DNA of 64,000 nt from Psychrobacter namhaensis (GTDB lineage Bacteria > Pseudomonadota > Gammaproteobacteria > Pseudomonadales > Moraxellaceae), in contig NZ_JABASS010000006.1 in the NCBI RefSeq assembly GCF_016107545.1, positions 62,001 to 126,000 of the forward strand, given 5' to 3'. Position numbers and translations under genes: made by a program. The notes beneath the pieces are model-generated. The model was given only the letters and a program-made list of their open reading frames with translations. It was not told where the DNA came from and searched no databases. Positions 1,008 to 47,869 of this stretch are shown here, piece by piece (within the stretch, counting starts at the first letter, position 1; the number at the start of each line of letters is the position of its first letter).

Positions 1008-2270
1008 TTATCTTACAAACTCTGGATAAGCTTCCATACCACATTCAGCTATATCTGCCCCTTCATACTCATCTTCTTCAGAGATACGTAGACCGATGAC
1101 AGCCTTGATGATGGCCCAAACGATTAAGCTGGCAACGAATACCCAAACAAAAATAGTAGCGGCACCTGCAATCTGACCCAAGAGCGTCGCTGCTGGATTG
1201 GTAATCGGTACGATAAGTAGACCAAATAGGCCAACCACGCCATGAACGGAGATCGCCCCCACAGGGTCGTCTATCTTTATTTTATCTAGTGCTAGAATAG
1301 AGAGCACAACAATCACACCAGCGATGAGACCAAAAAGGGTCGCTTGCAACGCAGATGGGGTGGAAGGCTCTGCAGTGATTGCGACCAACCCTGCAAGTGC
1401 ACCATTTAAGAGCATCGTCAAATCAGCTTTACCAAAGATGAGGCGTGCTACTAATAAAGCACCAACGGCACCACCAGCAGCTGCTGCATTGGTATTCAAA
1501 AAGACCATCGCAACTGAGTTGGCGCTAGCAATGTCGCCAAGCTTTAGCACAGACCCACCGTTAAAGCCAAACCAGCCCATCCATAATATAAGAGTACCAA
1601 GCGCTGCTAATGGTAGGTTAGCACCTTGAATTGCGCGTATCTCCCCATTAGGCCCATACTTACCTTTACGTGCACCTAATAGTAAGACGCCTGCCAAGGC
1701 CGCGGCCGCCCCTGCCATATGGACGATACCAGAACCTGCAAAATCAGAAAAACCCATGTCGCCGAGATTAAATAGGCCAAAGACGTCTTTGCCACCCCAC
1801 GTCCAGCTGCCCTCTAATGGATAAATCACGCCAGTCATCACCACGGCGAATAATAAAAACGACCACAGCTTCATGCGTTCAGCCACAGCCCCTGATACGA
1901 TAGACATACAGGTCGCGACAAACACCACTTGGAAGAAAAAATCAGACGCAGCAGAGTAAACAGAATCACCGCCAAAACCATTTTCAGCTGATGCGGTTAG
2001 CGCATCTTCTACTAATGTCGCATTGCCTGCAATGCCACTCAAAAATAGCTCACCACCATACATAATGGCGTAGCCACATATCATGTACATGATAGAAGCG
2101 GTCGCAAAGAGCGCGATGTTTTTGGTTAGAATCTCAACCGTATTTTTTGAACGAACAAGACCGGCTTCTAACATGGTGAAGCCCGCTGCCATCCACATGA
2201 CGAGCGCCCCACATATCAAAAAGTAAAAGGTGTCAAGTGCGTACTGGAGCTCAAAGATTTGATTTTGCAT
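1008..2270 (-). CDS. amt: Ammonium transporter (Amt/MEP/Rh family)
   Basis: A 420-residue inner-membrane channel for ammonium/ammonia with about 11 hydrophobic segments. Family landmarks are visible: EAGLVRSKN near residues 36-44, the first pore histidine in GSGIVHMAGA, and the second in SVHGVVGLFG. No cleaved signal peptide is evident, unlike E. coli AmtB. The ATG is preceded by AAGGGGGAATTAAT. It lies 78 bp downstream of glnK on the same strand, the classic glnK-amt operon in which GlnK blocks the channel when nitrogen is plentiful. Transcription probably comes from the sigma-54-like promoter upstream of glnK. Confidence 0.96.
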   Translation of the reverse strand: MQNQIFELQYALDTFYFLICGALVMWMAAGFTMLEAGLVRSKNTVEILTKNIALFATASIMYMICGYAIMYGGELFLSGIAGNATLVEDALTASAENGFGGDSVYSAASDFFFQVVFVATCMSIVSGAVAERMKLWSFLLFAVVMTGVIYPLEGSWTWGGKDVFGLFNLGDMGFSDFAGSGIVHMAGAAAALAGVLLLGARKGKYGPNGEIRAIQGANLPLAALGTLILWMGWFGFNGGSVLKLGDIASANSVAMVFLNTNAAAAGGAVGALLVARLIFGKADLTMLLNGALAGLVAITAEPSTPSALQATLFGLIAGVIVVLSILALDKIKIDDPVGAISVHGVVGLFGLLIVPITNPAATLLGQIAGAATIFVWVFVASLIVWAIIKAVIGLRISEEDEYEGADIAECGMEAYPEFVR

Positions 2271-2348: not shown

Positions 2349-2756
<408 letters not shown>

Positions 2757-40451: not shown

Positions 40452-41150
40452 TTAAATGGCGACCAATTCTTGCACGTTGTTTGCTAGCATGCTGTCGCCT
40501 GTCCCCTGCGACACTACTTGCCCGCGTGACAGTACGGTGTAGTTGTCAGCAAGCTCCTCGGCAAACTCGTAGAACTGCTCGACCAGTACAATGGCCATGT
40601 CGCCTTGATTGGCCAAATCGCGCAGGACGCGGCCAATATCTTTGATAATAGATGGTTGAATACCTTCAGTCGGCTCATCTAAAATCAATACGGTTGGCTC
40701 AGAGGCTAGCGCACGAGCGATAGCCAGTTGCTGCTGCTGACCCCCTGATAAATCTCCACCGCGACGATGTTTCATCTCGTCGAGTACGGGAAAAATGTCA
40801 TACAAATGCGTCGGCACTTGCCGCGCTTTGCTACGTGAAAACTTGGCCATACCAATCAAAATGTTTTCCTCGACCGTCAATGTCGAAAAGATATCGCGCC
40901 CTTGCGGCACGTACGCTAGGCCTTCCCGTACGCGCTGCTCAGATGATAATTTGCTAATGTCTTTATCATTGAGAAAAATTTGTCCTGACTTGATTGGCAA
41001 TATGCCCATCAGACATTTAAGCAGCGTGGTTTTGCCTACGCCATTGCGACCAAGTACCACACTACATTCGCCCACGGGCGCGGTAAACGAGACATCGCGT
41101 AAAATATGACTACCGCCGTAGTATTGGTTGATGGCATTAACTTGTAACAT
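40452..41150 (-). CDS. urtE: Urea ABC transporter, ATP-binding subunit UrtE
   Basis: A 232-residue LivF-like ATPase. Walker A is GRNGVGKTTL (about 35-44), the signature is LSGGQQQQLAIARAL, and Walker B is VLILDEPTEGIQPSII; the GIQPSII ending is characteristic of UrtE. GGAGACAATT precedes the ATG. It is last in urtABCDE. A 230-bp spacer with no gene separates it from lgt. Confidence 0.95.
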   Translation of the reverse strand: MLQVNAINQYYGGSHILRDVSFTAPVGECSVVLGRNGVGKTTLLKCLMGILPIKSGQIFLNDKDISKLSSEQRVREGLAYVPQGRDIFSTLTVEENILIGMAKFSRSKARQVPTHLYDIFPVLDEMKHRRGGDLSGGQQQQLAIARALASEPTVLILDEPTEGIQPSIIKDIGRVLRDLANQGDMAIVLVEQFYEFAEELADNYTVLSRGQVVSQGTGDSMLANNVQELVAI

Positions 41151-41182: not shown

Positions 41183-42115
41183 TTATCGACCCAAGTAGGA
41201 CTCAATCACCGCTTCGTTGGCTTGTACCTCAGCTAACGTACCTTCGGCCAAAATAGCCCCTTGCGCCAATACCGTTACTTTTTCGCTAATAGCATCGATA
41301 AAGGTCATGTCATGCTCGACCACTACTAAAGTATGGTTCTTTTTGAGACGCAGGCACAGCTCAGCGGTGTGCTCGGTTTCGGCATCGGTCATGCCAGCCA
41401 CAGGCTCATCAAGCAAAATAAGCTTGGGACTTTGCATAAGGAGCATGCCAATCTCAAGCCACTGCTTTTGCCCGTGTGAGAGCAGGCCAGCAGGTTTGTT
41501 GATACTGTCTGTTAAGCGGATTTGCTGCAAGGTAGCATCAAGGGTATTGCGAGTGTCGGCATCAAGTTTATTAAACAAGCTTTTGACGACGCGCTTGTCT
41601 TTGGGTGCGGCAAGCAACAAATTGTCCATCACCGTAAAATTTTCGAACACGGTCGGTTTTTGAAATTTACGGCCAATACCAGCCTCGGCGATCTCTTCGG
41701 TTGATAAGCTGGCAAGGTTGTGGGTTTGACCAAAAAATACGCTGCCCTTAGTGGGACCGGTTTTACCAGTAATGACGTCCATCAGCGTGGTTTTGCCCGC
41801 GCCATTGGGGCCGATGATGCAGCGCAGCTCACACTCTTCAATGTAGAGCGACAAATTATTGAGTGCCCGAAACGAATCAAACCAAACACTCACCTCTTCT
41901 AAGTACAGAGCAATGCCATGGCTAAAATCCACCTCTGCTGATTTTGGGTGACTGAGGCCATCACCGCCATGCGTACGTCCATATTCATTGGTTGGATTAG
42001 ATGGCTTGCCGTTATTACTAATATTGCCATTAGCGCTAAGGGTATTATTTAATGACTCACTTTCGGGCGTGACACGAGTAGGCGGCTTGGACGATAGTGA
42101 TTTTTGATTTAGCAT
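41183..42115 (-). CDS. urtD: Urea ABC transporter, ATP-binding subunit UrtD
   Basis: A 310-residue LivG-like ATPase. The first 65 residues are polar, Asn/Ser/Pro-rich and probably disordered, and absent from many UrtD proteins. The ABC domain begins LYLEEVSVWFDSFRAL, a UrtD hallmark. Walker A is GPNGAGKTTLMD, the signature LSHGQKQWLEIGML is the characteristic UrtD variant, and Walker B is LILLDEPVAGMT. Its ATG overlaps the urtC stop as TAATG, suggesting translational coupling. Confidence 0.94.
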   Translation of the reverse strand: MLNQKSLSSKPPTRVTPESESLNNTLSANGNISNNGKPSNPTNEYGRTHGGDGLSHPKSAEVDFSHGIALYLEEVSVWFDSFRALNNLSLYIEECELRCIIGPNGAGKTTLMDVITGKTGPTKGSVFFGQTHNLASLSTEEIAEAGIGRKFQKPTVFENFTVMDNLLLAAPKDKRVVKSLFNKLDADTRNTLDATLQQIRLTDSINKPAGLLSHGQKQWLEIGMLLMQSPKLILLDEPVAGMTDAETEHTAELCLRLKKNHTLVVVEHDMTFIDAISEKVTVLAQGAILAEGTLAEVQANEAVIESYLGR

Positions 42116-43185
42116 TATTGCTTCTCCTTTTTAAAGCGGTCAAACAAGCCCATAATACCGTTGGGTAAGAACAGGGTGACCACCACGAACAGCCCGCCTA
42201 GTATCAATAGCCAAAACTCAGGATAGGCGACCGTAAAGTAGGTTTTAACCGAATTGACCACACCGGTGCCTAAGATGGCACCAATCAGTTTGCCTCTACC
42301 GCCCGTTGCCACCCAGACCGCCATTTCAATGGAGTTCACAGGGTTCATCTCGCTCGGATTGATGATCCCCACTTGTGGCACATAGAGCGCGCCTGCAATA
42401 CCTGCAATGACGGCGGATAATACCCAAGCAGACAGCTTGTACCATAGCGTGCGATACCCCAAGTACTGTAAGCGGTTTTCGCTATCACGAATGGCGCCAA
42501 GCACACGGCCATAAGGCTGATTCATCAAATAGCGTAGGCCCATGTAGGACAGCAAAAGCGCGACGGCAGTAACAAAGCACAGCAAGGCGCGGGTTGAAGC
42601 GGCAGTAATGTCATAGCCAAGTAGCGTGGTAAAGCCCGTAAAGCCATTGTTGCCGCCAAAGCCCGTTTCGTTACGGAAGAATAATAAGGCTGCGGCGTAC
42701 ACCATCGCTTGGGTGATGATCGAAAAATACACGCCTTTGATTTTGGAGCGAAAGGCAAAGAAGCCAAAAATAAAAGCGATCAGACCAGGTACCAGTACCA
42801 CCAGCGCCATGGCCCACCAAAAGTTTTGGGTGCCCGCCCAGTACCACGGCATTTCAGTCCAGCTTAAAAAGCGCATAAAATCGGGCAAGGCGTCGCCCGC
42901 TGTTTCGCGTGTTAAGTACATGCCAAACGCATAACCACCCAAGGCAAAGTACAAACCGTGGCCCAAACTCAAAATACCGGCGTAGCCCCATACGAGATCT
43001 AACGCTAAGGCCACCATGGCCAGTGCCATGATTTTGCCAATGAGCGTGATCCAGTAGGCGGATAGGTAAAAAGGGGAGGCCTCTGGCATCAAGTGTAGCC
43101 AAGGCAGTATCAGTAGTATGGCAAAGCACACACCAATTAAAATGGCGCTACGCGGTGTATCAGACAGTAATTTGGTCACTATCAT
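42115..43185 (-). CDS. urtC: Urea ABC transporter, permease UrtC
   Basis: 356 residues from the ATG at 43185, which has AAGGAG six bases upstream; a frame extending to 43224 would overlap urtB and lacks a ribosome site. It is a LivM-type permease with about nine membrane segments, including LVWGYAGILSLGHGLYFALGG and FRNETGFGGNNGFTGF, typical of UrtC. It starts 10 bp after urtB. Confidence 0.95.
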   Translation of the reverse strand: MIVTKLLSDTPRSAILIGVCFAILLILPWLHLMPEASPFYLSAYWITLIGKIMALAMVALALDLVWGYAGILSLGHGLYFALGGYAFGMYLTRETAGDALPDFMRFLSWTEMPWYWAGTQNFWWAMALVVLVPGLIAFIFGFFAFRSKIKGVYFSIITQAMVYAAALLFFRNETGFGGNNGFTGFTTLLGYDITAASTRALLCFVTAVALLLSYMGLRYLMNQPYGRVLGAIRDSENRLQYLGYRTLWYKLSAWVLSAVIAGIAGALYVPQVGIINPSEMNPVNSIEMAVWVATGGRGKLIGAILGTGVVNSVKTYFTVAYPEFWLLILGGLFVVVTLFLPNGIMGLFDRFKKEKQ

Positions 43186-43195
43186 AGCGGTCTCC

Positions 43196-45070
43196 TTATT
43201 CGACAAAGCGGCCTTTGAGTGCAAATAAACCTTGTGGCCGCTTCTGAATAAACAGAATCACAAGAACCAACAACACAATTTTAGCCAATACAGCGCCAAT
43301 ACCAATCTCGAGTACTGTGCCGCTGATACCAAGCCCTAAGGCGGCTAATACCGCGCCCCATACTTGTCCGACACCGCCCACGACCACGACCAAAAACGTG
43401 TCAATAATATAAGTTTGACCCAAATCAGGGCCCACATTGCCTACTTGAGCCAAAGCGCAGCCAGCCATGCCAGCCAGTCCAGAACCCAAACCAAATGCCA
43501 TCATATCGATACGGGCGGAGCGGATACCGACAGCACGCGCCATTTGACGATTTTGAGTGACTGCTCGTATAAACAAACCAAAGCGAGTTTTGTTAAGTAA
43601 ATACACCAAGAGCGCCACGATAATGATAGTAAACACGATGATGGCAATACGGTTATAAGGAAGCACAAGGCTTGATGACACTTGATAAGCGCCGCTGAGC
43701 CACGCCACGTTACTAACTTCCACGTTTTGCGCGCCAAAAATCATCCGTACCAATTGCATCAAAATTAGACTCACCCCAAAGGTGGCCAATAAAGTCTCTA
43801 GCTCACGGCCATATAACGGACGAATCACGATACGCTCAATAATCATGCCGATGATAGCGCTGACCATAAAAGCCGCTGGAATAGCGGCAAGCAAATACCA
43901 ACCAACCATATCTGGCAGGTAAGTTTGAAATAAGTTTTGCACCATATAAGTGGTGTAAGCACCAATCATAATCAGCTCACCGTGCGCCATATTAATCACG
44001 CCAAGCAGACCAAAGGTAATGGCAAGGCCAAGCGCTGCCAGCAGTAAAATACTGGCGGTACTCATACCCGTGAAGATATGACCGGTCCATGTGCTTATTT
44101 GGATACGGCGCGCCACGCTATCTCTGGCATCGATAAGGGCCGCTTCGAGCGTGGAGTTTACATTATCATTGGCAAGGGCAGACTCGATATCTACCAATAC
44201 CTGCGGGCTGTCGCTGTCAGCAAGCACAGACAGTGCCGCAATTTGCGTTGGCAGATCACCGTTTTTGAAGTCAATACGCGCTTGCAATGCGGCCAGTGCT
44301 TTTTTGACTTTAGCATTGTCCTCGGTAGCCGCTGCTGCTGTAATAATGGCGGGATCTACTTGGTCAATATTGTCAGCCAAAATCGCCACGGCTTGTAGAC
44401 GCTGGGCGGGTTTGTCAGACTCTAGCTTGACCTTGGCGCGCCCAAAGATAAGCGCCGAGCGGAGCGCATTGGTCAGGGTGATTGGTGACAAATCACTTGG
44501 CCAATCTGCCGTCTCTTTTTTATCAGGATAAGTAAACAGCTGATCATCGGCATTGAGCAAATAAGTTTGTCCACTGTTACCTTGATATAGCTCGTCATTT
44601 TCAATGAACGCTACCAAATTATCCAGGCTCTCAACCGAACCTGGCCAGTGACTTAGCATGGCTTGCCGCTGACCAAAATCACCCGCCACAAACTGCTCGA
44701 TAGCGTCCCCTGAGGCCGCAGTTGAGGGCAGGCTGGTTGGTGCTGATTCTGGCGTGATGAGCGATTGCTCGTGCTGAGTTTGCAGGGTGTCACTGGGCGT
44801 ATTTAGCGCAGCTGCTGTCACTGCTACCGTATTTGCTTGGGTGGCCATTTCGCTGCTGTGCGTATGCTCGGTTTGGCTCTCATGAGCGTGAGCCACCGTG
44901 ACCGTACTGAGTATTAATAACCACAATAGCTGTCGTGGCAGCCACTGCATAAAAGCAGATGACAGGCTTATTTTTTCATTGATGCTGGTGTTATTAATGG
45001 AGGCGCGCTGATAGGGTGTGACGACGGGCGTGGGGTTTCCTATGGTAGCACGTAAAGTATGGCGCTGCAT
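43196..45070 (-). CDS. urtB: Urea ABC transporter, permease UrtB with periplasmic N-terminal domain
   Basis: 624 residues from the ATG at 45070, preceded by AGGGAG seven bases upstream. A signal-peptide-like segment (PRQLLWLLILSTVTVAHA) begins only about 45 residues in. A periplasmic region of about 260 residues follows, with Ala-rich helices (about 100-330), then a LivH-type permease with eight membrane segments (GLAITFGLLGVINMAHGELIMIG onward). The long periplasmic domain is known in proteobacterial UrtB, but its role is unclear. The gene lies between urtA and urtC. Confidence 0.93.
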   Translation of the reverse strand: MQRHTLRATIGNPTPVVTPYQRASINNTSINEKISLSSAFMQWLPRQLLWLLILSTVTVAHAHESQTEHTHSSEMATQANTVAVTAAALNTPSDTLQTQHEQSLITPESAPTSLPSTAASGDAIEQFVAGDFGQRQAMLSHWPGSVESLDNLVAFIENDELYQGNSGQTYLLNADDQLFTYPDKKETADWPSDLSPITLTNALRSALIFGRAKVKLESDKPAQRLQAVAILADNIDQVDPAIITAAAATEDNAKVKKALAALQARIDFKNGDLPTQIAALSVLADSDSPQVLVDIESALANDNVNSTLEAALIDARDSVARRIQISTWTGHIFTGMSTASILLLAALGLAITFGLLGVINMAHGELIMIGAYTTYMVQNLFQTYLPDMVGWYLLAAIPAAFMVSAIIGMIIERIVIRPLYGRELETLLATFGVSLILMQLVRMIFGAQNVEVSNVAWLSGAYQVSSSLVLPYNRIAIIVFTIIIVALLVYLLNKTRFGLFIRAVTQNRQMARAVGIRSARIDMMAFGLGSGLAGMAGCALAQVGNVGPDLGQTYIIDTFLVVVVGGVGQVWGAVLAALGLGISGTVLEIGIGAVLAKIVLLVLVILFIQKRPQGLFALKGRFVE

Positions 45071-45259
45071 GTGTGGCTCCCTGTTTTTCACAGACAACAA
45101 ACCCTCAGCCTTTACTATGTGGCGTATCAAATAGTAAAGATATGGTTAAGGTTTGAAGGTCTGTAAATGGTTGAAAATAAATGTGGAGAGTCGGCAAGAG
45201 GACGGTTACTGATGTGATGTCTATCTTGCGTTTCTCGCCCATGTGCTTGTCAGCACAAT

Positions 45260-46597
45260 TTATTTGGGGATATACTCACTCCATGGCTGCGCTCGGATGA
45301 CCTCTGGCGTTTTAAAAATGGTGTCAAACTGACCATCCGCCCGTATTTGACCAATCATGACAGGCTTCCACAAATGATGGTTTTCCTCATCCATTTTCAA
45401 TGTGTATCCTGACGGGGCGTCAAATGTTTGCCCAGCCATGCTGATGCGCACTTTATCAACATCGGTAGTACCAGCATCTTCAACCGCTTGTTTCCACATA
45501 TTGATACCGACATAGGTGGCTTCCATCGGGTCATTGGTCACCACTTTGTCAGCGTTCGGTAGGTTATGGTCTATGGCATATTGTTTATAGCGTTTAGTGA
45601 AGTCGCTATTGGTTGGGTTTTTGATCGACATAAAGTAGTTCCATGCCGCCAAATGTCCTTGTAGTAAGCTGGTATCAATGCCGCGCAGCTCTTCTTCGCC
45701 CACAGAGAACGCCATGACTGGGATATCTGAGGCTTTGATCCCTTGGTTGGCAAGTTCACGATAAAACGGCACGTTTGAGTCGCCATTGATGGTAGAGATT
45801 ACCGCTGTCTTTTTGCCCGTTGAGAATTTTTTAATGTTGGATACGATGGTTTGATAGTTACTGAAGCCAAATGGCGTGTACTCTTCCATGATGTCTTCAT
45901 CAGCCACGCCTTTTGACTTTAAAAACGCCTTTAAAATCTGGTTGGTGGTACGTGGATAGACGTAGTCAGTACCCAGCAATACAAAACGCTCGGCGCCGCC
46001 GCCTTCCTCACTCATCAAGTACTCTACCGCTGGGATGGCTTGCTGGTTTGGGGCAGCCCCAGTATAAAAAATGTTTTTTGATTGCTCTTGACCCTCATAC
46101 TGTACGGGATAAAACATCAAGCCATTTAATTCCTCAACCACTGGCAGTACGGACTTACGTGATACCGATGTCCAACCACCAAAAATCACATCGACTTTGT
46201 CTTGTGTTAATAGCTGACGGGCTTTTTCAGCAAATAAGGGCCAATCAGAGGCAGGGTCAACGACCACAGGTTCTAGTTGTTTACCAAGCACGCCGCCATT
46301 GGCATTGATCTCATCAATGGTCATTAGCGCAGTGTCTTTTAAAGAGGTTTCAGAGATGGCCATGGTGCCAGACAGCGAGTGTAAGATGCCTACTTTGATT
46401 GTGTCGCCGTCAGCCACAGGGACGGTTGTGGTTTCTGTCGTTGTCTCTGTTGTCGCAGTCTCAGCAGGCTTTTGACAGCCAGCGAGACTCAAGCTACCAA
46501 CGACGGCAATGGCTAATAGCGAAAAGTGTGATTTCATTTTGCCGTGGAAATGAGCGTTAATAAATTGAGGATTGGCTAGCATGGGTAACGAAAACAT
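45260..46597 (-). CDS. urtA: Urea ABC transporter, substrate-binding lipoprotein UrtA
   Basis: 445 residues from the ATG at 46597, which has AGGAG seven bases upstream. The lipoprotein signal (MKSHFSLLAIAVVGSLSLAG then Cys) starts about 21 residues in, so the n-region is unusually long. The mature protein opens with a Thr/Glu-rich linker and then DTIKVGILHSLSGTMAISE, the UrtA hallmark; GGWTSVSRKSVLPVVE and NIFYTGAAPNQQAIPA are also diagnostic. It is the first gene of urtABCDE. No urease genes lie nearby. Confidence 0.95.
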   Translation of the reverse strand: MFSLPMLANPQFINAHFHGKMKSHFSLLAIAVVGSLSLAGCQKPAETATTETTTETTTVPVADGDTIKVGILHSLSGTMAISETSLKDTALMTIDEINANGGVLGKQLEPVVVDPASDWPLFAEKARQLLTQDKVDVIFGGWTSVSRKSVLPVVEELNGLMFYPVQYEGQEQSKNIFYTGAAPNQQAIPAVEYLMSEEGGGAERFVLLGTDYVYPRTTNQILKAFLKSKGVADEDIMEEYTPFGFSNYQTIVSNIKKFSTGKKTAVISTINGDSNVPFYRELANQGIKASDIPVMAFSVGEEELRGIDTSLLQGHLAAWNYFMSIKNPTNSDFTKRYKQYAIDHNLPNADKVVTNDPMEATYVGINMWKQAVEDAGTTDVDKVRISMAGQTFDAPSGYTLKMDEENHHLWKPVMIGQIRADGQFDTIFKTPEVIRAQPWSEYIPK

Positions 46598-46653
46598 GGA
46601 CATCTCCTAAATAAACACAAAGATAAATACTGCTCCTGAACACTAATTAAGAG

Positions 46654-46669
46654 TTCAAGTTCCATGCCA
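46654..46669 (-). promoter_or_regulatory. Sigma-54-like promoter for urtABCDE
   Basis: On the minus strand the sequence is TGGCATGGAACTTGAA, against the consensus TGGCACG-N4-TTGCA. The -24 GG is intact, and the -12 element is TTGAA, the same variant as upstream of glnK. The predicted start would leave a leader of about 45 bases before the urtA ATG. Confidence 0.55.
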
Positions 46670-46760
46670 AGTCAAAAAGTCCCCTAATCGAGTAATAGTT
46701 GAGCAATAATCAAATATTATCGGCTATTTTCCTTAATTTAGTGCATGACTGTGCATAAGT

Positions 46761-46777
46761 TGCACCATAAAGGTGAG
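46761..46777. promoter_or_regulatory. NtrC-like binding site upstream of urtA
   Basis: TGCACCATAAAGGTGAG matches the NtrC consensus TGCACY-N5-GGTGCA except for the last two bases. It lies about 105 bp upstream of the sigma-54-like promoter, the usual enhancer distance. A further half site, TTGGTGCA, is at 46789-46796, and TGCATGACTGTGCA lies at 46742-46755. No gene is seen in 46604-47053. Confidence 0.5.
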
Positions 46778-47053
46778 AATAAAAAAGGTTGGTGCAGCAA
46801 GATAGAAGGGCTGAATTACAGATATAAAGACATTTATTGCTAAAAATCGCCAAAACGGCTACGGTGATATCGTTAAGGCATGCGTGATTCTGGGCGGTTA
46901 TAGGTTTTTAATTTTATATAACAGTCCATTTGCGTTAATCCATTGTGGTTTTTGTTTTTTAGAGATGAGCAAATAAAATCTAAAACGAGGATTGTTACTC
47001 GTGTCAGAGTGCCTACGTGTCTACGCGTTGAATGATTCTACAAAAGGAGTGTT

Positions 47054-47869
47054 ATGTGTATTGTCGCCATTGCTTGGCAGTTGTTTGATGAGCTGCCATT
47101 GGTACTACTGTCAAACCGCGATGAGTTTTTACAGCGTCCAACTGAAAGGTTGCACCAGTGGCCCGACCAGCCAATCTATGCTGGGCGTGACAGCCAAAGC
47201 GGTGGTACTTGGTTGGGGGTTCACCAAGAGCAAAGTGCAGATTTTCACCAACAGAACGGACGCTGGGCTGCGGTATTGAACTTTCGTGATGGCGTACAGG
47301 CAGGTTCGAACGAACGTTCGCGCGGTGAGCTGGTAACGCGTTTTTTGACCAGCAGTATGAGCCCAATGGCTTTTGCGCGGCAGGTGAGCTTACAAGACTA
47401 TGCTGGCTTCAATCTTATCGTTGGTGACGCCGCCCAAGCGGTCATCGTCAATAATCGCGGCCATGCACCCACGCCACTATATACCGGACTGCACGTTCTC
47501 TCCAACGGTCAACCAGAAGAAAGCTGGTTTAAAACCGAGCGTTTACGAGCGCGTTTACGGCAAGAAGTGTTGCCGCTGATTGCAGAGAACAGCTCACCTG
47601 CGCACTGGCAACAGGCGGCCTTCAATGTGTTATCAGATAGCACACAAGCGCCAGCGGACAAACTGCCCAATACTGGCGTAGCTGTTGAGATTGAGCAGAT
47701 GCTATCTTCTGTTTATATCGAGCCTGTTGCTTTTGGCAGTAAGGATCAGAACACACCAACTTATGGGACGCGTACCCAAAGTATTTTAACTTTGCATAAA
47801 GACAGGAAAAAAGACGCCACCATTACTGCTGGGATTAGCAGTAGAGAGTGTCATCATGATGCAAAATGA
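47054..47869 (+). CDS. NRDE (TANGO2-like) family protein
   Basis: A 271-residue protein beginning MCIVAIAW with the name-giving motif LLSNRDEFLQRPT at about 18-30. GGTWLGVH, AAVLNFRD and FNLIVGDA follow, as in the NRDE/TANGO2 family. The Cys at position 2 after Met could be an N-terminal nucleophile, as in related Ntn hydrolases. Family function is unsettled; heme transport or lipid metabolism has been proposed for eukaryotic members. AAAAGGAGTGTT precedes the ATG. It is divergent from urtA. Confidence 0.85.
   Translation: MCIVAIAWQLFDELPLVLLSNRDEFLQRPTERLHQWPDQPIYAGRDSQSGGTWLGVHQEQSADFHQQNGRWAAVLNFRDGVQAGSNERSRGELVTRFLTSSMSPMAFARQVSLQDYAGFNLIVGDAAQAVIVNNRGHAPTPLYTGLHVLSNGQPEESWFKTERLRARLRQEVLPLIAENSSPAHWQQAAFNVLSDSTQAPADKLPNTGVAVEIEQMLSSVYIEPVAFGSKDQNTPTYGTRTQSILTLHKDRKKDATITAGISSRECHHDAK

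Follow-up and report, generated by a model that had tools for sequence, protein, structure and literature searches.

How the urea transporter operon of Psychrobacter namhaensis is switched on, and why the sigma-54-like promoter in front of it carries A in place of the canonical C at −12, are the questions that this locus raises. Sigma-54 promoters are considered to stay locked until an activator spends ATP on opening them, with the C at −12 forming part of the lock. We describe the operon and its upstream region, compare the putative promoter with those of other nitrogen genes, and consider what the base at −12 may do.

The urt operon and its upstream region

The DNA analyzed, a 64-kb stretch of contig 42 of the 2.9-Mb genome (hereafter the window), harbors urtABCDE on a single strand, the minus strand, with all five subunits scoring past the cut-offs of their curated models (Table 1). 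urtA is present in 58 of the 105 genus genomes searched, and the genomes that have it form two clades, clade 1 (that of the window, 28 species) and clade 2 (30 species), which, as species of a single genus, are non-independent samples. Two ATGs, at 46603 and 46597, are candidate starts for urtA; 46597 is preferred because an AGGAGA ribosome site is found there and a relative (L033) lacks the first ATG, and 46603 is also possible. Because a TANGO2-domain gene begins divergently at 47054, the intervening gap of 450 bp is taken as the urt regulatory region. The genes downstream of urtE in the window are unrelated. Urease genes directly follow urtABCDE in the other clade (L330-L340, L343) and are located elsewhere in the clade of the window.

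Table 1. Coordinates of the genes and of the putative regulatory features in the window
Feature	Position	Strand	Remarks
amtB-type ammonium transporter gene	1008..2270	-	TIGR03644 and TIGR00836 above cut-off
glnK (P-II protein)	2349..2687	-	NCBIfam P-II models, E 6e-53, slightly below cut-offs; amtB next
glnK −24/−12 element TGGCACAGTTCTTGAA	2770..2785	-	−12 base A; 18/18 Psychrobacter loci read
urtE	40452..41150	-	TIGR03410 above cut-off
urtD	41183..42115	-	TIGR03411 above cut-off
urtC	42115..43224	-	longest open frame; TIGR03408 above cut-off
urtB	43196..45130	-	longest open frame; TIGR03409 above cut-off
urtA, urea ABC transporter substrate-binding protein	45260..46597	-	TIGR03407, 592 bits versus cut-off 492.75
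Predicted transcription start	46643	-	from spacing to −12 only
urtA −24/−12 element TGGCATGGAACTTGAA	46669..46654	-	−12 base A (46655); TGGCAY-N5-TTG in 58/58 urtA upstream regions
Conserved TGCACTAAATTAA block between NtrC site and promoter	46733..46746	-	clade-1 alignment, 28 species
NtrC-like site TGCACCATAAAGGTGAG	46761..46777		conserved half TGCACC
Extra NtrC half-site TTGGTGCA	46789..46796	+	TGCACCA.. in clade-1 alignment

The sequence-only reading had placed a sigma-54-like element about 50 bp before urtA and an NtrC-like site with an extra half-site further upstream, and each was found where it had been placed, with the element ending 51 or 57 bp 5′ of the candidate ATGs 46603 and 46597, respectively. 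In all 58 genomes that contain urtA, TGGCAY-N5-TTG sits 70 to 107 bp 5′ of the urtA start, with GG at −24 within TGGCAY and the right spacing to the TTG at −15 to −13. In contrast, the canonical C at −12 is seen in only one of these regions (L063, genome G062); the base is A in 56 and G in the last (L057, genome G074). The sequence-only reading had passed over the A at this position. The window contains five matches to TGGCAY-N5-TTG[AC][AT] compared with a Markov mean of 0.58, or about 0.0007 per 150-bp upstream stretch; when one mismatch is allowed the excess is weak (12 compared with a mean of 7.6). In the alignment of the 28 clade-1 species, the columns of the promoter, a TTTATGGTGCA half-site and the TGCACTAAATTAA block are conserved amid variable flanks. 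Another well-conserved block, ATTATTGCTCAA in the clade-1 consensus (window about 46697-46712, minus strand), is likewise flanked by the NtrC sites and the promoter; to our knowledge it matches no known site.

The consensus NtrC palindrome is TGCACC-N5-GGTGCA. TGCACCATAAAGGTGAG, centered about 126 bp before the start that spacing predicts, is off this consensus at 2 of 12 palindrome letters. Palindromes with up to three mismatches show no enrichment in the window (17, versus a mean of 29.6 in shuffles), and thus the palindrome alone is not significant. Upstream of urtA, a palindrome of this quality is found in 28/28 clade-1 genomes and 13/30 clade-2 genomes (41/58 overall). Within clade 1 the TTTATGGTGCA columns are kept and the other half reads C[TC]CCCC in most relatives, while the 30 clade-2 species have tandem GGTGCA half-sites and not a single palindrome. 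In 57 of the 58 genomes, GGTGCA half-sites, usually several, are present in the 170 bp that precede the promoter, and their density there is 12.1 per kb compared with 0.59 per kb window-wide. The putative NtrC unit conserved at urtA is the GGTGCA half-site, with the full palindrome weak in relatives. Of the earlier reading, an NtrC region upstream of the promoter is supported, and the palindrome as its conserved unit is not; in none of the 58 genomes was the operon kept with both motifs lost.

The conservation of the element and the density of the half-sites place the urtA promoter and its NtrC half-sites beyond chance. That the region contains no sigma-54 promoter, and the element is a chance likeness or the site of another factor, would be in keeping with a −12 base off consensus and a start site that is predicted only, but it is hardly credible given that the element is conserved in every urtA genome at 70 to 107 bp before the start and that the same element is found at five nitrogen genes (see next section). 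We consider it likely that the urtABCDE promoter is a genuine NtrC/sigma-54 promoter, in which the canonical C at −12 was replaced by A and the A was then kept. Phosphorylated NtrC binds upstream GGTGCA sites and remodels the RpoN polymerase at −24/−12. From this established knowledge we infer that urt depends on NtrC and RpoN, such that nitrogen limitation would lead to phosphorylated NtrC at the GGTGCA sites, which would in turn activate the sigma-54 (RpoN) promoter of urtABCDE.

Sigma-54-like elements at other nitrogen genes

The sequence-only reading had joined urt and the glnK promoter in a local nitrogen-limitation regulon. At glnK a −24/−12 element is present in every Psychrobacter locus read, but there is no recognizable NtrC site. 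GGTGCA occurs within 170 bp upstream in only 1 of 18 Psychrobacter loci, and no conserved NtrC palindrome (up to three mismatches) was found in 500 bp, and thus NtrC control of glnK is unsupported by sequence. Nor is the regulon local: within the window 44 kb separate glnK from urt, and −24/−12 elements are also found on other contigs, at nirB, at the divergent narK-type nitrate transporter gene and at ureD, where they are kept across species. Outside the family, no site at full blind score was found in 28 glnK loci (27-28 genomes of the order); the weak TGGCAY matches there, with C in seven and A in one, are near chance and were not used as evidence.

These further elements were among the matches to TGGCAY-N5-TTGNW in the genome of P. 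namhaensis itself, which number 83 versus 20 in a reversed control and in which coding matches predominate. Of these, 71 were checked against open frames, six being in the window and six more, all TTGGT, being left out. Ten of the 71 are outside open frames, located before nirB, narK, ureD and the genes L273, L276 and L088, with four lacking a clear gene; the cross-species follow-up covered the nirB, narK and ureD elements. A conserved TTTTGGTGCAT block, common to nirB and narK, lies between the two genes.

The ureD gene differs in its arrangement relative to urt. Where it stands apart, TGGCAY-N5-TTGT precedes it in 16/16 genomes (98 kb off in G065 and on another contig in 15, which in fragmented assemblies is no strict proof of separation), and GGTGCA was found in 15/15 ureD loci tested. 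Where ureD instead lies about 6 kb after urt on the same strand, no such element was found in 12/12 genomes; one of these loci, L343, has a score-9 match that reads TGGCAA, as in its sisters, and was not counted. Because ureD has no element of its own in the adjoining arrangement, one promoter probably serves both urt and ureD there. Read as a natural experiment, the ureD arrangement supports the suggestion that the element functions. Two further ureD loci (L341, L342), counted under neither arrangement, have no element.

The base at −12 and the sigma factor that reads it

To read the −12 base, sites were scored blind to that position. In Psychrobacter the base is A at glnK (18/18) and at nirB (26 of 27 readable loci, with C in L312 of G062 and two more loci unreadable; A also in 3/3 additional loci), C at narK (25/26, with no site found in L311) and T at ureD where it is detached from urt (16/16). 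Distinct spacers number nine in the urtA group, five for glnK, three for nirB, six for narK and five for ureD. The −12 base is gene-specific and is conserved within orthologue groups while the spacers vary. A at −12 is not indispensable, as the urtA promoters of G062 and G074 show. G062, a divergent genome that is 83% complete, has C at −12 of both urtA and nirB, which is possibly ancestral or a reversal.

Comparison with other bacteria suggests that these bases changed at different times. In other families, C is found at −12 of urtA in all 12 readable of 45 loci and of nirB in all 18 readable of 29 loci. For urtA, the contrast of A in 33/35 with A in 0/12 gives p 2e-9 in a Fisher test that ignores shared descent. 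The Fisher test for nirB was not used, since its comparison set had been chosen (the order plus g7, g8, g14 and g16, with g2, g5, g9, g12 and g13 left out). Within the family, Acinetobacter urtA has A in 2/2 loci. The glnK loci read in Moraxellaceae outside Psychrobacter number 32; A is present in all 12 clear sites (g15, six; g11, three; g9, two; g14, one), and some of the genera have no glnK element among the loci read. At nirB in these relatives, C is found in g7 (three), g8, g14 and g16 and T in g2 (two) and g5 (one), with the rest weak. Given these nirB readings, nirB seems to have changed its base more recently than urtA and glnK did.

It is possible, though rather doubtful, that the −12 base is nearly neutral and was inherited by descent with drift. 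The species are all related, and both the C and G exceptions at urtA and the mixed nirB bases of other genera would fit drift. However, spacer positions 6, 7 and 10 are free within groups in which −12 is fixed, with A in seven of the nine urtA spacers, and one sigma factor reads promoters that keep different bases, be it C, A or T.

That sigma factor appears to be a single RpoN. In the genome of P. namhaensis the RpoN DNA-binding domain has one match; RpoN was found in 104 of the 105 genus genomes, with one match each in 103 of the 104. In G048, rpoN appears in four pieces with stops on contig 55, whether by an assembly error or as a pseudogene. Among the genomes of g10, a genus of the family, a rpoN match above cut-off was found in 7 of 17, a weak match in one and none in nine, seemingly through repeated loss. 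For the sigma-54 activator domain, the P. namhaensis genome gave two strong and three weak matches. One of the strong matches is NtrC (L002; TIGR01818, 654 bits versus cut-off 558.6), the C-terminal domain of which matches the solved NtrC structure 1ntc. The second falls short of every model listed for it, and our guess is that it is PilR.

RpoN Region I is present, and the crosslinking arginine R383 is presumably retained in Psychrobacter RpoN, as judged by residue count. The helix-turn-helix reads HESTVSRLTTSK[TSN][IM]LTPQGL in all 50 Psychrobacter sequences read (its own rpoN, L001:298-1983, among them; L096-L124, L155-L174), while the 30 other family RpoN loci read have HEST[IV]SRVT.[QN]K..[HL]TP[RL]G. 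The helices of g7, g10 and g14 are also off the usual form. The RpoN helix-turn-helix is reported to contact the −12 region (PMC5505868, PMC7057263). The sigma-54 of this lineage might thus have changed its −12 specificity, with the RpoN helix-turn-helix coevolving with A, and the finding of a genus-specific helix in this −12-binding part in 50/50 RpoN sequences (of 104 genomes matched) would fit such a change. Three observations make it improbable: A is found at glnK in g9 and g11, which have an ordinary helix (TTQK..TPRG), and in g15 (TTNK..TPRG); g7 has an altered helix yet C at nirB; and Psychrobacter narK keeps its C in 25/26.

C at −12 occurs in 96% of compiled sigma-54 promoters, and the paper that gives this figure says that the consensus C holds basal transcription in check and that C is less conserved at bypass sites (PMC4551910). 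Because of these reports, we propose that the −12 base may be a set-point for promoter opening, a proposal that we offer tentatively and with rather less than even confidence. The promoters read by the one sigma-54 would then differ in their setting: at narK, with its C, the lock on DNA opening would be full, and at urtA, glnK and nirB (A) and at ureD (T) it would be partly relaxed, such that these promoters would open at lower levels of phosphorylated NtrC or leak slightly. A broader form of the idea, that across the nitrogen regulon of Psychrobacter and its relatives −12 is an evolved per-gene dial at which C was replaced at different times and the new base then kept, is conceivable but somewhat unlikely. 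Such a dial would have the A of glnK and urtA shared with Acinetobacter, the A of nirB only in Psychrobacter, and T at ureD. If it is correct, partly unlocked promoters, with a low threshold or basal transcription and in part independent of the activator, coexist by design with strictly activator-dependent ones, such as the fully locked divergent narK promoter beside nirB, in one regulon with one activator and one sigma factor.

Temperature may offer another reason for an A:T pair at −12, which could ease strand opening in the cold as an adaptation of a cold-living genus. Bypass opening at glnAp2 is reported to increase with temperature (PMC4551910) and distortion to start at −12 (PMC5505868), both of which would accord with this notion. 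We nonetheless regard cold adaptation as quite improbable, as A is also found in Acinetobacter urtA (2/2) and in g15 glnK (6/6 with a site), and narK retains C in the same cells.

Comparison with known sigma-54 systems

The urt genes of Pseudomonas putida are reported to be induced by nitrogen limitation and were assigned to NtrB/NtrC (PMC7801951), the Pseudomonas stutzeri urease genes ureDEFG and ureA are under NtrC/sigma-54 (PMC8443478), and urease is under sigma-54 in other proteobacteria (PMC12316311). The two Pseudomonas systems resemble the present one in genes or pathway, in regulators and in the response to nitrogen limitation, and urea uptake under NtrC and RpoN is a known pattern, here extended to this group. 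The difference is in the promoter. The urtA promoters read outside the family, among which those of Pseudomonas are not included, have C at −12 (12/12 readable), whereas those of Psychrobacter and Acinetobacter have A.

A base other than C at −12 is, by itself, not new, because 4 of 29 intergenic sigma-54 sites in Salmonella lack C (C in 25, T in 3, A in 1), and the pspA and pspG promoters of Salmonella and E. coli, which are functional sigma-54 promoters, naturally have T there (PMC3844500). C at −12 is thus typical of sigma-54 promoters without defining them. In contrast with those 4/29 sites, of the five nitrogen promoters compared here, four have a base other than C. Bradyrhizobium japonicum (at −12) and Rhodobacter sphaeroides (at −11) likewise have one base near −12 that parts promoter groups (PMC3162934, PMC11999139). 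In those bacteria, however, the base follows sigma-54 paralogues or consensus classes, while here there is one RpoN match per genome (103/104). The activator-bypass sigma-54 promoters of E. coli also have a nonconsensus −12, there tied to easier opening, but this was shown with a sigma-54 lacking Region I (PMC4551910), and Region I is present in the RpoN considered here.

A search of the open-licence literature yielded no paper that treats NtrC control of Psychrobacter urt or promoter-specific −12 bases in Moraxellaceae. Within that literature, and as far as the search can tell, a regulon under a single RpoN whose −12 code is conserved promoter by promoter is new. The natural −12 variants, above all the divergent pair of nirB (A) and narK (C), provide a test of whether the lock is tuned promoter by promoter. 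Motif searches that require C at −12 would miss most nitrogen promoters in Psychrobacter. The genome also contains sigma-54 candidates that do have C at −12, reading TGGCAY-N5-TTGC[AT] and located before the OmpR-like (L273), AlgR/LytTR-like (L276) and cobA-like (L088) genes.
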